In this document: piece after piece, positions 1 through 3,009 of the stretch
How the letters are laid out: every line of letters begins with the position of its first letter
Position numbering within the stretch: the stretch's first letter is position 1
DNA from: Acidovorax sp.
GTDB taxonomy: Bacteria > Pseudomonadota > Gammaproteobacteria > Burkholderiales > Burkholderiaceae_C
Assembly (NCBI GenBank): GCA_018780365.1
Contig: JADMJR010000140.1
Coordinates: 1-32,047, forward strand
DNA length: 32,047 nucleotides
Reading direction: 5' to 3'
The notes under the pieces: generated by a model
Databases searched by the model: none
The model's input: only the letters and a program-made list of their open reading frames with translations
Told to the model about the DNA's origin: nothing
Position numbers and translations under genes: made by a program

Positions 1-1292
1 TGCTGGCCGACCTGGAAAAGCTGGGCTTTGGCATCGTGGCCTTTGCCTGCACCACCTGCAACGGGATGAGTGGCGCACTGGACCCCGCAATCCGGCAGGA
101 AATCGTCGACCGCGACCTGTACGCCACCGCCGTGCTCTCAGGCAACCGCAATTTCGACGGGCGCATCCACCCCTATGCCAAGCAGGCGTTTTTGGCCTCG
201 CCCCCGCTGGTGGTGGCCTATGCGATGGCGGGCACGGTGCGTTTTGACATTGAAAAAGACGTGCTGGCGGTGGTGCACGGGAGGGAAGTTCGCCTCAAAG
301 ACCTGTGGCCCAGTGACGCAGAAATCGACGCCGTAGTGAAGACTGCCGTGAAGCCCTCGCAGTACCGCGCCGTGTACGAGCCCATGTTCGCCATCCGGCC
401 GGGCGATGGCCAGCGCGTGTCGCCGCAGTACGAGTGGCGCCCGCAGTCCACCTACATCCGCCGCCCGCCCTACTGGGACACCGAGGGCATCGGCGCACTC
501 GCCGCCCACCCGCGCACGTTGAAAGGCATGCGTCCGCTGGCCATCCTGCCCGACAACATCACCACCGACCACCTGTCGCCATCGAACGCCATCCTGCCGG
601 ACAGCGCAGCGGGCGAATACCTGACCCACATGGGCGTGCCCGAGGAGGACTTCAACTCCTACGCCACGCACCGGGGTGACCACCTCACCGCCATGCGCGC
701 CACGTTTGCCAACCCGCAGCTCGTCAACGAAATGGCCGTGGTGGATGGCCAGGTGAAAAAAGGCTCGCTCGCCCGCGTGGAGCCCGAAGGCCAGGTCATG
801 CGCATGTGGGAGGCGATGGAAACCTATCTGAACCGCCGCCAGCCGCTCATCATCATTGCCGGTGCCGACTACGGCCAGGGGTCCAGCCGCGACTGGGCCG
901 CCAAGGGGGTGCGGCTGGCGGGGGTGGAGGTGGTGGTGGCCGAGGGGTTTGAGCGCATTCACCGCACCAATCTGATTGGCATGGGGGTGCTGCCTCTGGA
1001 GTTTGAGGCGGGGATCAACCGCACCACGCTGGGACTGGATGGGACGGAGATTTATGGCGTGGAGGGTGATCTGAAGCCTGGGGCCACGGTGACGCTCGTT
1101 GTTCAACACAAGCTGGGTGAGCTGGTGAAGGTGCCTGTGCGCTGTCGGCTGGACACGGCGGAGGAAGTGTCGGTGTACGAGGCGGGTGGGGTGCTGCAGC
1201 GCTTTGCGCAGGATTTTTTGGCGGCGCGGGCGGCGGTCGCCCCCTCTCCCCAACCCCTCTCCCGCGAGGGGAGAGGGGCTCTTGCACGATGA
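1..1292 (+). CDS. acnD: AcnD, Fe/S-dependent 2-methylcitrate dehydratase (5' partial)
   Basis: The reading frame is already open at base 3, so only the C-terminal half (about 430 codons) is present. AcnD dehydrates 2-methylcitrate to 2-methylaconitate in the cytosolic methylcitrate cycle for propionate; PrpF then isomerises the product. An early FACTTCNGMSG segment supplies two cysteines of the [4Fe-4S] cluster. The swivel domain carries DHLSPSNAI and GADYGQGSSRDWAAKG, the aconitase substrate loop. This, with prpF next door, favours AcnD over a housekeeping aconitase. The last 15-20 residues (SPQPLSREGRG region) are encoded by a palindromic repeat at 1238-1278, so the natural C-terminus has probably been extended by repeat insertion. 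The stop is at 1290-1292. Confidence 0.93.
   Translation, partial: LADLEKLGFGIVAFACTTCNGMSGALDPAIRQEIVDRDLYATAVLSGNRNFDGRIHPYAKQAFLASPPLVVAYAMAGTVRFDIEKDVLAVVHGREVRLKDLWPSDAEIDAVVKTAVKPSQYRAVYEPMFAIRPGDGQRVSPQYEWRPQSTYIRRPPYWDTEGIGALAAHPRTLKGMRPLAILPDNITTDHLSPSNAILPDSAAGEYLTHMGVPEEDFNSYATHRGDHLTAMRATFANPQLVNEMAVVDGQVKKGSLARVEPEGQVMRMWEAMETYLNRRQPLIIIAGADYGQGSSRDWAAKGVRLAGVEVVVAEGFERIHRTNLIGMGVLPLEFEAGINRTTLGLDGTEIYGVEGDLKPGATVTLVVQHKLGELVKVPVRCRLDTAEEVSVYEAGGVLQRFAQDFLAARAAVAPSPQPLSREGRGALAR
1238..1278 (-). repeat. GC-rich palindromic repeat, copy A (inverted)
   Basis: The strongest arm pair is CCCCTCTCCC (1254-1263), loop GCGA, then GGGGAGAGGGG (1268-1278), a 10-bp perfect stem. The reverse complement aligns over its length with copies B and C, with a few substitutions and one gap. 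It lies inside the 3' end of acnD and is translated there. Its position resembles a REP-type sequence, but I cannot name the family. Confidence 0.8.
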
Positions 1293-1315
1293 CAATCGCT
1301 GCTACTTATCTTGCT

Positions 1316-1357
1316 CCCCTCACCCCTTGCGGGAGAGGGGCCGGGGGAGAGGGGGCC
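1316..1357 (+). repeat. GC-rich palindromic repeat, copy B
   Basis: This 42-bp unit matches copy C at 1708-1749 in 40 of 42 positions, and the last 30 bases are identical (1328-1357 and 1720-1749). It ends 6 bp before the DUF559 start codon, so its G-rich tail may also act as the ribosome binding region. B and C are direct repeats bracketing the DUF559 gene. Confidence 0.85.
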
Positions 1358-1363
1358 CCACCC

Positions 1364-1822
1364 ATGGACCAACGCCAGTTCACCAAAACCCTGCGCCAGA
1401 ACATGACCGATGCCGAGCAACTGCTCTGGAAGCAACTGCGCGCCCACCGCATGGACGGCCAGAAGTTCCGCCGCCAACAACCGATCGGCCCCTACATCGT
1501 GGACTTTGTGCATTTCGGCCTGCGGCTGATCGTGGAAGCGGATGGCGGGCAACACGTGGATTCGGAGCACGACGCGATCCGCGATGCCTGGCTGCGCAGC
1601 CAGGGATTCACCGTGCTGCGGTTTTGGAACAACGACATCCTTCAGAGCACCGAAGCAGTGCTCGAATCCATCTACACAGCCATGCGCGGAACCGCCCCTT
1701 CCCCACCCCCCTCTCCCCCTGCGGGAGAGGGGCCGGGGGAGAGGGGGCCTCACCACGACCACAACCCGTTCACCAAGCCCATCGTTCCTCTCCCGCTCAC
1801 AGAGAGGGACGCCATGCCATGA
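1364..1822 (+). CDS. DUF559 (Vsr-like endonuclease fold) protein
   Basis: A 152-aa protein of the DUF559 family, which is related in fold to very-short-patch-repair endonucleases; its biological role is not settled. It shows an N-terminal helical region with WKQLR, then Q-IGPYIVDF (Asp47), then IVEADGGQH (Glu58, Asp60, Gln63, His64), the acidic/His motif expected of a nuclease centre, and a GFTVLRFWNNDI strand. The ATG at 1364 is preferred to the one at 1289 because homology starts there and the upstream codons are repeat. The family part ends near residue 108. The remaining 44 residues are translated repeat (PSPPPSPPAGEGPGERG). The stop overlaps the prpF start by 4 bp (ATGA). It interrupts acnD-prpF, which are usually adjacent. 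Confidence 0.8.
   Translation: MDQRQFTKTLRQNMTDAEQLLWKQLRAHRMDGQKFRRQQPIGPYIVDFVHFGLRLIVEADGGQHVDSEHDAIRDAWLRSQGFTVLRFWNNDILQSTEAVLESIYTAMRGTAPSPPPSPPAGEGPGERGPHHDHNPFTKPIVPLPLTERDAMP
1708..1749 (+). repeat. GC-rich palindromic repeat, copy C
   Basis: Direct repeat of copy B with 40 of 42 identical bases. It is translated as the Pro/Gly/Glu-rich tail of the DUF559 protein. A shorter related palindrome (CCTCTCCC ... GAGAGGGA, about 1786-1809) follows, and its GAGAGGGA end is well placed to be the prpF ribosome binding site. Confidence 0.85.
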
Positions 1823-3009
1823 CGCACCATCGACCACAACTCAGAATCCCCGCCACCTACCTGCGTGGCGGCACCAGCAAAGGCGTGTTCTTTCAGCTAG
1901 AAGACCTGCCCGAACCGGCCCGACTACCCGGCGCCGCGCGCGACGCCCTGCTGCTGCGTGTGCTGGGCAGCCCGGACCCGTATGGCAAGCAGATCGACGG
2001 CATGGGCAATGCCTCGTCCAGCACCAGCAAGGCCGTGATCCTCTCCCGCAGCACGCGGCCGGGGCATGACGTGGACTACCTGTTTGGCCAGGTGTCCATC
2101 GACAAGCCCTTCGTGGACTGGAGCGGCAACTGCGGCAACCTCTCAGCCGCCGTGGGGCCATGCGCCATCCACATGGGGCTGATCGATGCCGCGCGCATTC
2201 CACTGGACGGCCACCTCACCGTGCGCATCTGGCAAGCCAACATTGGCAAGACCATCGTGGCGCATGTGCCGATTGCCAACCGGCAGGTGCAGGAGACCGG
2301 CGACTTCGAGCTGGACGGCGTGATCTTTGCGGCCGCCGAGGTGGCGCTGGAGTTCATCGACCCGGCCGATGAAGGAGACGCGGGTGGATCGATGTTCCCG
2401 ACCGGCAACGTGGTGGATACGCTGGAGGTTCCCGGCGTAGGCAGTTTTGCCGCCACGCTGATCAATGCGGGCATCCCCACCATCTTCCTGAATGCCCGGG
2501 ACATCGGCTGCGCAGGCACCGAACTGCAAGGCGACCTCAACGAGGACCAGGTGGCACTTGCACGCTTTGAAGCCATCCGCGCCCACGGAGCCCTGCGCAT
2601 GGGCCTGATCCAGAACCTGGGCGAAGCCGTCACCCGCCAGCACACCCCCAAGATCGCCTTTGTGGCACCACCGGCTGGCTACACCGCCTCTAGCGGCAAA
2701 CGCATCGGGGCGCAAGACATCGACCTGCTGGTGCGCGCGCTCTCCATGGGCAAGCTGCACCACGCGATGATGGGCACGGCGGCCGTGGCCATTGGCACAG
2801 CAGCGGCTGTACCGGGCACGCTGGTCAACCTGGCGGCGGGCGGCGGCTTGCGCAATGCCGTGCGTTTTGGCCACCCCTCGGGCACCCTGCGCGTGGGGGC
2901 CGAGGCCACACACACCAACGGCCAGTGGACCGTGACCAAAGCGCTCATGAGCCGCAGCGCCCGCATCCTGATGGAGGGCTCGGTCCGCGTGCTCGGCGGT
3001 ATTTTTTGA
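1819..3009 (+). CDS. prpF: PrpF, 2-methylaconitate cis-trans isomerase
   Basis: A 396-aa protein, the usual PrpF length, opening with the typical PATYLRGGTSKGVFF. PrpF isomerises the 2-methylaconitate made by AcnD so that the housekeeping aconitase AcnB can hydrate it to 2-methylisocitrate. Further family-like segments are DPYGKQIDGMGNASSSTSK, DWSGNCGNLSAAVGP and NAGIPTIFL. The start at 1819 is chosen because homology begins there; the frame is open further upstream but only through repeat and DUF559 sequence. GAGAGGGA at about 1802-1809 can serve as its ribosome binding site. Its start overlaps the DUF559 stop, suggesting translational coupling in the prp operon. Confidence 0.95.
   Translation: MTHHRPQLRIPATYLRGGTSKGVFFQLEDLPEPARLPGAARDALLLRVLGSPDPYGKQIDGMGNASSSTSKAVILSRSTRPGHDVDYLFGQVSIDKPFVDWSGNCGNLSAAVGPCAIHMGLIDAARIPLDGHLTVRIWQANIGKTIVAHVPIANRQVQETGDFELDGVIFAAAEVALEFIDPADEGDAGGSMFPTGNVVDTLEVPGVGSFAATLINAGIPTIFLNARDIGCAGTELQGDLNEDQVALARFEAIRAHGALRMGLIQNLGEAVTRQHTPKIAFVAPPAGYTASSGKRIGAQDIDLLVRALSMGKLHHAMMGTAAVAIGTAAAVPGTLVNLAAGGGLRNAVRFGHPSGTLRVGAEATHTNGQWTVTKALMSRSARILMEGSVRVLGGIF

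Follow-up and report, generated by a model that had tools for sequence, protein, structure and literature searches.

Why does a small gene of the DUF559 family lie between acnD and prpF in an Acidovorax sp., accompanied by copies of a short GC-rich repeat, and what connects the gene with the repeat? The question is raised by a 32,047-nucleotide stretch of DNA (contig JADMJR010000140.1 of assembly GCA_018780365.1, positions 1 to 32,047 of the forward strand; hereafter the window), in which a first-pass annotation had described a nuclease-like gene carried as a palindrome-flanked cassette inside the prp operon and had compared it with repetitive extragenic palindromic (REP) sequences and their RAYT transposases. 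It had also allowed that the palindrome might be no commoner near DUF559 genes than elsewhere. By computational comparison, a whole repeat unit was found on both sides of the gene in 102 of 141 full-domain DUF559 loci and in 1 of 750 control positions, which confirms that DUF559 genes are usually framed by one short folded repeat family in many bacterial groups. Moreover, the number of repeats in a genome follows DUF559, and RAYT transposases much less. Papers are cited below by their PubMed Central (PMC) identifiers.

The locus and its repeat units

The open reading frame (ORF) in question matches PF04480 with an E value of 6.5e-41 (139 bits, cut-off 20.6), which bears out its assignment to the DUF559 family. 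The features of the locus are as follows.

36..1292, + strand: 3' part of acnD (ORF as listed; its start may precede the window)
1241..1278, - strand: repeat copy 1, BoxC/PIT type (tail 1241-1251, linker 1252-1253, hairpin 1254-1278)
1316..1355, + strand: repeat copy 2 (hairpin 1316-1340 with one mismatch, linker 1341-1342, purine tail 1343-1355)
1364..1822, + strand: predicted nuclease gene of the DUF559 family, YcjD-related (ATG 1364, stop TGA 1820-1822, 152 codons)
1367..1684, + strand: PF04480 domain, with the residues invariant in 63 aligned relatives
1695..1747, + strand: repeat copy 3 (degenerate gene-facing tail 1695-1705, hairpin 1708-1732, linker, second tail 1735-1747)
1819..3009, + strand: prpF (ATG 1819-1821 overlapping the DUF559 stop as ATGA)

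In each copy a hairpin of the form CCCCTCTCCC-loop-GGGAGAGGGG, with a mismatch in copy 2, is joined through a linker of two bases to a third arm, which reads GGGGGAGAGGGGG or the complement of this. The description of one GC-rich palindrome held for the copies, which lie where they had been placed, the direct ones (1316-1357 and 1708-1749) being identical at 40 of 42 positions and the first (1241-1278) inverted with respect to them (87% complementary over 31 nt); it did not hold for a bare palindrome, as each unit consists of hairpin, linker and purine tail. The units also reach into the genes. The last acnD codons and the stop are supplied by copy 1, the purine tail of copy 2 faces the DUF559 gene and ends eight bases 5' of its ATG, where a ribosome-binding site would be expected, and the 45 codons after the domain run through copy 3, which encodes part of the C-terminus of the protein. 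The 3' end of the gene is thus partly made of the repeat, much as had been claimed, and the repeat-derived tails mentioned for other DUF559 proteins also proved to be real. The nearest unit on either side of the gene points in the same direction, and the inverted copy is the outer one on the left. Folded as DNA, the single copies in the window showed no excess over shuffled sequences (z -0.05 to -1.9). The genome, of about 4.6 Mb and about 85% complete, contains 42 matches to the unit pattern, 21 per strand, and none to the backwards control pattern. An Rfam scan for introns, limited to positions 1100-1950 of the window, returned nothing except microRNA models, which were rejected as composition matches with scores far below their cut-offs.

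Judged by its sequence, the window unit is a repeat already known, the BoxC/PIT/TM intrastrand-triplex repeat: the layout of pyrimidine (Y) arm, loop, purine (R) arm, linker and second R arm in the window copies matches the E. coli list of PMC4666352. BoxC/PIT repeats were discovered in E. coli in the 1990s. That paper counts 23 copies in E. coli K-12 and five close inverted pairs, and records the repeat from more than 260 genomes. Its authors found it linked neither to transposons, phages or plasmids nor to any class of neighbouring gene, and their report of triplex formation concerns the isolated E. coli strand in vitro, not the duplex or living cells. The inverted pairs are a further likeness, and for four of the five the positions in Table 1 of PMC4666352 put the tails on the inside; the difference is that the repeat was described there without a linked gene or mobile element, whereas here it is tied to DUF559/YcjD.

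The acnD-prpF junction

That acnD and prpF are usually adjacent, as had been supposed, agrees with the situation in the genus. Among 47 genomes searched, 36 had a prpF match, and in 24 of these no palindrome lies between the two genes (motif-to-motif distance 62-137 nt in 23 and 306 nt in one). DUF559 occupies the junction in 7 of the 36, and in 2 palindromes are present without the gene, as relics. The possibility that acnD-DUF559-prpF is the ancestral order came out the opposite way, this being a minority arrangement (7 of 36, plus the 2 relics). An appearance of the genus copies in both orientations relative to prpF was rejected, being due to contig orientation.

A long junction without DUF559 was present in 3 of the 36, two of which were read (G210 and G227) and one (G208) assigned by length only. 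At the two junctions read (loci L155 and L160) a different ORF of about 200 aa was seen (MKGPRLIFVAKPPPEVAAAMW... in G210), representing a second kind of insert; the G208 junction, at 697 nt, equals them in length. The acnD-prpF site of DUF559 occurs again in Chitinimonas, Thiocapsa and Alcanivorax, where the start of PrpF was recognised by eye; either repeated targeting or transfer of the operon may account for this.

Framing of DUF559 genes across bacteria

The 141 loci comprised 31 from the family and genus, 80 from other taxa and 30 from the class. The 31 were strong matches taken from 33 above 110 bits, with two extra copies in one genome (G181) left out, of which one (L151) is flanked on a single side, by a unit about 70-115 nt away, and the other (L152) has none within 300 nt. 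The 80 were the best 80 of 549 confirmed loci, that is, nearest relatives and not a random draw, and the 30 were drawn from the 73 class genomes with a full domain (best E <= 1e-25). Whole units with up to five substitutions were sought within 300 nt on each side, and the control positions were placed in the 80 contigs. At least one side carried a unit at 130 of the 141 loci, including all 31 from the family and genus (the 7 genus ones among them), compared with one side at 31 of the 750 control positions. Both tails pointed toward the gene at 75 of the 102 double-sided loci; at 12 and 8 they pointed one way, and at 7 outward.

Similar results were obtained when no unit was specified. An inverted-repeat score comparing the left flank with the reverse-complemented right one exceeded 13.5, the 99th percentile of 3140 control positions, at 29 of 31 family and genus, 58 of 80 other-taxon and 20 of 30 class loci, and at 0 of 14 weak PF04480 matches. 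Plain hairpins of at least eight pairs stood on both sides at 25 of the 31 and 53 of the 80 loci, against 16 of 1091 control positions; around the 14 weak matches no such pair was present, and a one-sided hairpin in three. The right flank of the same locus was the best partner of the left one in 36 of 141 cases (about 1 expected), and flank similarity rose with protein similarity, host kinship not having been removed (Mantel rho 0.31 for the 141 loci and 0.28 for the 80 other-taxon loci, p 0.001 each). Since 17 of the 141 loci lie under 45% GC, the framing is not due to composition alone.

Among the best 80 of 549, the hosts were alpha-, beta-, gamma- and deltaproteobacteria and, from metagenome bins, Planctomycetota, Omnitrophota, Melainabacteria, Aminicenantes and Doudnabacteria, several of these loci being short contigs whose phylum labels may be wrong. 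Judged by eye, DUF559 genes on plasmids of Deinococcus and Synechocystis isolates also look framed, and one on a Pseudomonas aeruginosa plasmid does not. The plasmid collection also holds chromosome-like records (NZ_CP141089.1, NZ_OL790696.1, NZ_CP119142.1 and NZ_CP119140.1) of 4.8-4.9 Mb for E. coli and 2.17 Mb for N. gonorrhoeae. Very long inverted repeats were seen across the DUF559 gene at L095 (Legionella anisa), L075 and L122, with local alignment scores of 123, 69 and 64; these are possibly recent elements.

At four low-GC loci (L129, L102, L091 and L113) the whole element stands, by inspection, in frame within apparent priA, ispE and carboxypeptidase ORFs, forming one long open frame, with tails outward on every side that has a called unit. 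Palindromic elements of Rickettsia insert in protein genes, and we know of no nuclease gene within them. The in-frame position of the palindromes at these four loci resembles such inserts, and REPs inside genes are mentioned in PMC3733652.

Terminators or messenger RNA stabilisers placed by selection around a small gene seem a scarcely credible explanation of the framing. In their favour, one tail takes the ribosome-binding position, and a termination role is presumed in PMC2869309 for the repeat of Enterobacter sp. 638, present as 100 copies of CCCTCTCCCXX(X)GGGAGAGGG. The weak PF04480 matches, none of which is framed (0 of 14), and earlier tests cited in PMC4666352, which found neither promoter nor terminator activity, argue in the other direction.

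Repeat number and DUF559 across genomes

In the genus, the 7 genomes with DUF559 carry 23-57 pattern matches each, whereas 27 of the 40 without it have no match and 2 have 23 or more (p 5e-6), these two being exactly the ones that keep palindromes without the gene at the acnD-prpF junction. In the class (369 genomes), with 39 genomes of weaker PF04480 matches counted as DUF559-negative, any repeat was present in 58 of 73 genomes with DUF559 and 65 of 296 without, and five or more in 43 of 73 and 31 of 296, respectively (p 3e-17). These counts include the units beside the gene, for which two or three were subtracted per DUF559 match; with three subtracted, the figures are 36 of 73 and 31 of 296 (p 2e-12). 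Among the 37 class families that hold both states, the DUF559 genomes were higher in 26, lower in 7 and tied in 4 (p 5e-4).

By eye, 8 of the 25 DUF559 genomes in the family were classed as carrying repeat type A and 8 as carrying type B, with nine left out, the B-like G097 among them. Five or more A or B matches occurred in 16 of the 25 genomes with DUF559, compared with 14 of 175 without, and each typed genome had its own type in excess (8 of 8 for A and 8 of 8 for B). This agrees with the matching of nuclease and repeat seen in the flanks, but the counts include the flanking units themselves. These account for both A matches of G017, two of the three B matches of G134 and the only B match of G148, which leaves little or nothing elsewhere in those genomes.

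These data also bear on the possibility that the units are ordinary REPs moved by a Y1 transposase, with DUF559 as cargo, which we regard as very improbable. Y1_Tnp, the RAYT domain, was matched in 44 of 47 genus genomes, and in the class five or more repeats were weakly associated with it (58 of 240 with the domain and 16 of 129 without; p 0.007). Against this, the window genome combines its 42 pattern matches and incomplete state with no Y1_Tnp (PF01797) match, the domain is present in 25 of the 27 genus genomes without any repeat match, and among genomes lacking DUF559 five or more repeats occur in 24 of 186 with Y1 and 7 of 110 without. One genus genome (G243) has 37 Y1 transposase matches, mostly of identical score, and only 2 palindrome matches, representing a recent IS200-type expansion.

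The tags of REPs were likewise sought. REP hairpins carry GTAG or CGTC at the foot (PMC3733652); within 8 nt of the foot, GTAG was found in 1 and CGTC in 2 of 215 flanking units from the 141 loci, and GTAG in 1 and CGTC in 0 of 35 units of the window genome, while one E. coli unit (L244) ends in CCGTC. The closest known counterpart in architecture is the REPtron, in which REPs or REPINs accompany a RAYT (TnpA-REP; PMC8266576, PMC3733652). In both systems a gene lies between inverted palindromes of which further copies exist in the genome (the nearest pair in the window being direct), single copies are dispersed alongside inverted pairs, and enzyme and repeat are matched to each other. They differ in that the gene within the palindromes is PF04480, a predicted PD-(D/E)XK, Vsr-related nuclease, instead of a Y1 HUH transposase, and in that the repeat has a purine third arm and practically never a GTAG tag. 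Because these two defining features were tested and did not appear, the DUF559 system is REPtron-like by architecture and not a member of that group; the parallel drawn in the first-pass annotation stands for architecture and genomic association (framing and copy number). PMC3733652 notes that there are REP families with no transposase of their own, and palindromes of obscure origin that bear no tag.

Gene-less doublets and ycjD in E. coli

Elsewhere in the window genome, as read at 17 loci, most copies belong to inverted pairs with a spacing of about 80 bp. Such a doublet, of about 105 bp, consists of hairpin, purine arm, a spacer of about 20-30 nt, pyrimidine arm and hairpin, and in two sister genomes (L042 and L163) the DUF559 gene occupies the position of the spacer. 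Folded as DNA, two doublets each form one long hairpin, at -48.8 and -44.1 kcal/mol (z -7.8 and -6.9).

Three K-12 doublet regions were covered to at least 80% in 3521, 3728 and 3506 of 5426 E. coli genomes, where rows just above 80% may lack part of the doublet. At hrpB-mrcB about 100 nt are absent as one block in three strains, and a single hairpin is kept in one. Loss at lldD-trmL is ragged, and in one strain just half of the alx-sstT doublet is missing; hrpB-mrcB is the only one of these E. coli sites at which the doublet is cleanly absent as a block. In E. coli EC21Z-151 an unrelated GC-rich insert of several hundred nt stands at the K-12 BoxC doublet position of alx-sstT (L241). The bases immediately 5' of the hairpin are NGTC, often CGGTC, in type-A units of E. 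coli and TTTTCT in several of type B (loci L222, L234, L235, L244-L247 and L223), and units of the window genome (L134-L150) tend to TYACT; such a lineage-specific foot sequence could be a candidate site of cleavage or recognition.

The DUF559 gene of E. coli is ycjD, which adjoins sapF (PF04480 E 1e-48). Two queries spanning it were covered to at least 80% in 3361 and 3334 of 5426 genomes, and no place covering 80% of the query was found in 2065. An E. coli control genome gave no PF04480 match, though YcjD itself matches at 1e-48. Three strains lacking ycjD were read and have efflux genes at its site, where the eef operon has been reported (PMC12817139). In strain KE47 a unit follows the DUF559 domain with its tail toward ycjD, MG1655 has lost part of this unit, and a second unit further downstream is the published copy 9. 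As the units at ycjD are downstream only and one is partly lost in MG1655, the E. coli form is one-sided and perhaps decaying. Among 60 rows listed of 5385 records, repeat-match places averaged 4.5 in 37 with ycjD and 3.4 in 22 without, a comparison given no weight because lineage and the unit next to ycjD both confound it.

The DUF559 protein and its possible action

Nuclease activity is predicted for the window protein, which has the invariant acidic and histidine residues of the family; R11, E18, W22, Q38, D47, E58, D60, G61, Q63, H64, D70, R73 and R86 (numbered from the ATG) are invariant in 63 aligned relatives. By its score on the YcjD equivalog profile NF007294 of NCBIfam (104 of 218 bits, E 4.8e-30, below the cut-off, and 264.8 bits for E. 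coli YcjD), it is a relative of YcjD and not its equivalog. No PADLOC defence model matched the window protein with an E value of 1 or lower, and YcjD reached only 0.02-0.03. The nearest solved relatives by sequence profile are 3hrl (an endonuclease-like protein, E 2.5e-41) and then 3r3p (a mobile-intron protein, E 6e-4), which we take to be the Vsr-like homing endonuclease I-Bth0305I; B chains of the cholera and heat-labile toxins and a single toxin B subunit (E 0.22-0.57) were set aside as chance matches. Statements on the fold rest on these sequence matches to solved chains and on PMC1189080, where YcjD is a PD-(D/E)XK member whose profile finds Vsr.

This kinship with Vsr and I-Bth0305I, the latter with its link to mobility, leads to two further explanations. 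The first is a role in repair: a Vsr-like nicking enzyme would correct mismatches and keep the palindrome arms complementary, and the flanking copies would mark an origin or regulate. Besides the kinship (PMC1189080), it draws on the Caulobacter DUF559 protein VsrA, required for the SOS response (DNA-damage signalling) in cells without cytosine methylase (PMC12907096), a role that is also compatible with a DNA-cutting enzyme. We consider it improbable, as it leaves the tail-inward framing and the gene-less doublets of equal layout unexplained. The second is homing, in which the palindromes are spread by something else and DUF559, a parasite resembling a homing endonuclease, recognises them and hence lands inside doublets. 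The relationship to 3r3p, the position of the gene at the doublet spacer and the homing-like in-frame inserts at the four low-GC loci all suit this explanation. It is nevertheless unlikely, though it deserves serious attention: genomes that lack DUF559 have far fewer repeats, a difference that persists when flanking copies are subtracted, and no other spreading agent was identified in a search confined to Y1 transposases. DUF559 also differs from Vsr and I-Bth0305I in that its flanks are palindromes recurring genome-wide; no intron was seen, though none was systematically sought.

Because the DUF559 gene is usually framed by one repeat family, it is a strong candidate for the agent that spreads the repeat, and we favour, with modest confidence, the explanation that a selfish palindrome system, working like a REPtron, has DUF559 as its dedicated nuclease. 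The pairing of gene and repeat, its orientation, the shared layout and the genome-wide association are direct observations; from them and from the protein family we infer cutting and spreading by DUF559. A full element would read hairpin, purine tail, DUF559 gene, purine tail, hairpin, with tails toward the gene, and the doublets of about 105 bp would be its gene-less offspring, REPIN-like, with a short spacer in place of the gene and folding as one long hairpin. In a first step, the protein would recognise the Y9-loop-R9-linker-R9 unit as an extruded or single-stranded hairpin, as suggested by the fact that distant hosts keep the unit around the gene and that unit and protein covary. In a second, it would nick or cut DNA at such structures, which its PD-(D/E)XK/Vsr kinship points to. 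Host repair or replication restart might then copy the unit into the broken target, as in homing; to our knowledge, a PD-(D/E)XK nuclease does not join strands by itself. Finally, doublets would be gained or lost as a block, as seen at one E. coli site, two others being ragged or partial.

Several observations weigh against this proposal. No unit was detected on either side within 300 nt at 11 of the 141 loci, and at 27 of the 102 with units on both sides the tails do not both face the gene. Of the 296 class genomes without full-domain DUF559, 31 have five or more repeats (as many as 78), and 15 of the 73 with it have no repeat by pattern, two of these (L205 and L197) showing the layout in other letters on both sides or one. 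After subtraction, the signal in the 37 families is weaker (19 higher, 12 lower, 6 tied; p 0.015), and Y1_Tnp has its own weak association with the repeats. At E. coli ycjD no unit lies upstream; among E. coli O157:H7 rows, one strain keeps a doublet and other strains are without ycjD. By eye, neither a target duplication, a mark of MITEs of DDE insertion sequences, nor a fixed junction was seen at the three E. coli sites, and PMC12907096 proposes mismatch repair for the Caulobacter protein. In addition, the association gives no direction: it is compatible with a nuclease that spreads the repeats, one that homes into them and one that services them.

Biological implications

A broader proposal, held tentatively and with the balance very slightly against it, is that these elements form a mobile-element class of their own in several phyla, in which a lone PD-(D/E)XK nuclease and a triplex-type palindrome would multiply by cutting and host-repair copying, without transposase, recombinase or reverse transcriptase; E. 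coli BoxC/PIT would be gene-less offspring of it and ycjD a remnant of the nuclease. A search of PMC by titles, beginnings of abstracts and some passages, with subscription papers and preprints outside it, found no paper linking DUF559 or ycjD to these repeats. No gene, function or means of spread has so far been connected with BoxC/PIT repeats, and no function is agreed on for the widespread DUF559 family, so that the link between them gives a hypothesis for both the nuclease family and the repeat. This hypothesis is testable in E. coli K-12, where the repeats and ycjD coexist, and, if true, it would represent a second solution to the REP/RAYT problem, unrelated to the first.

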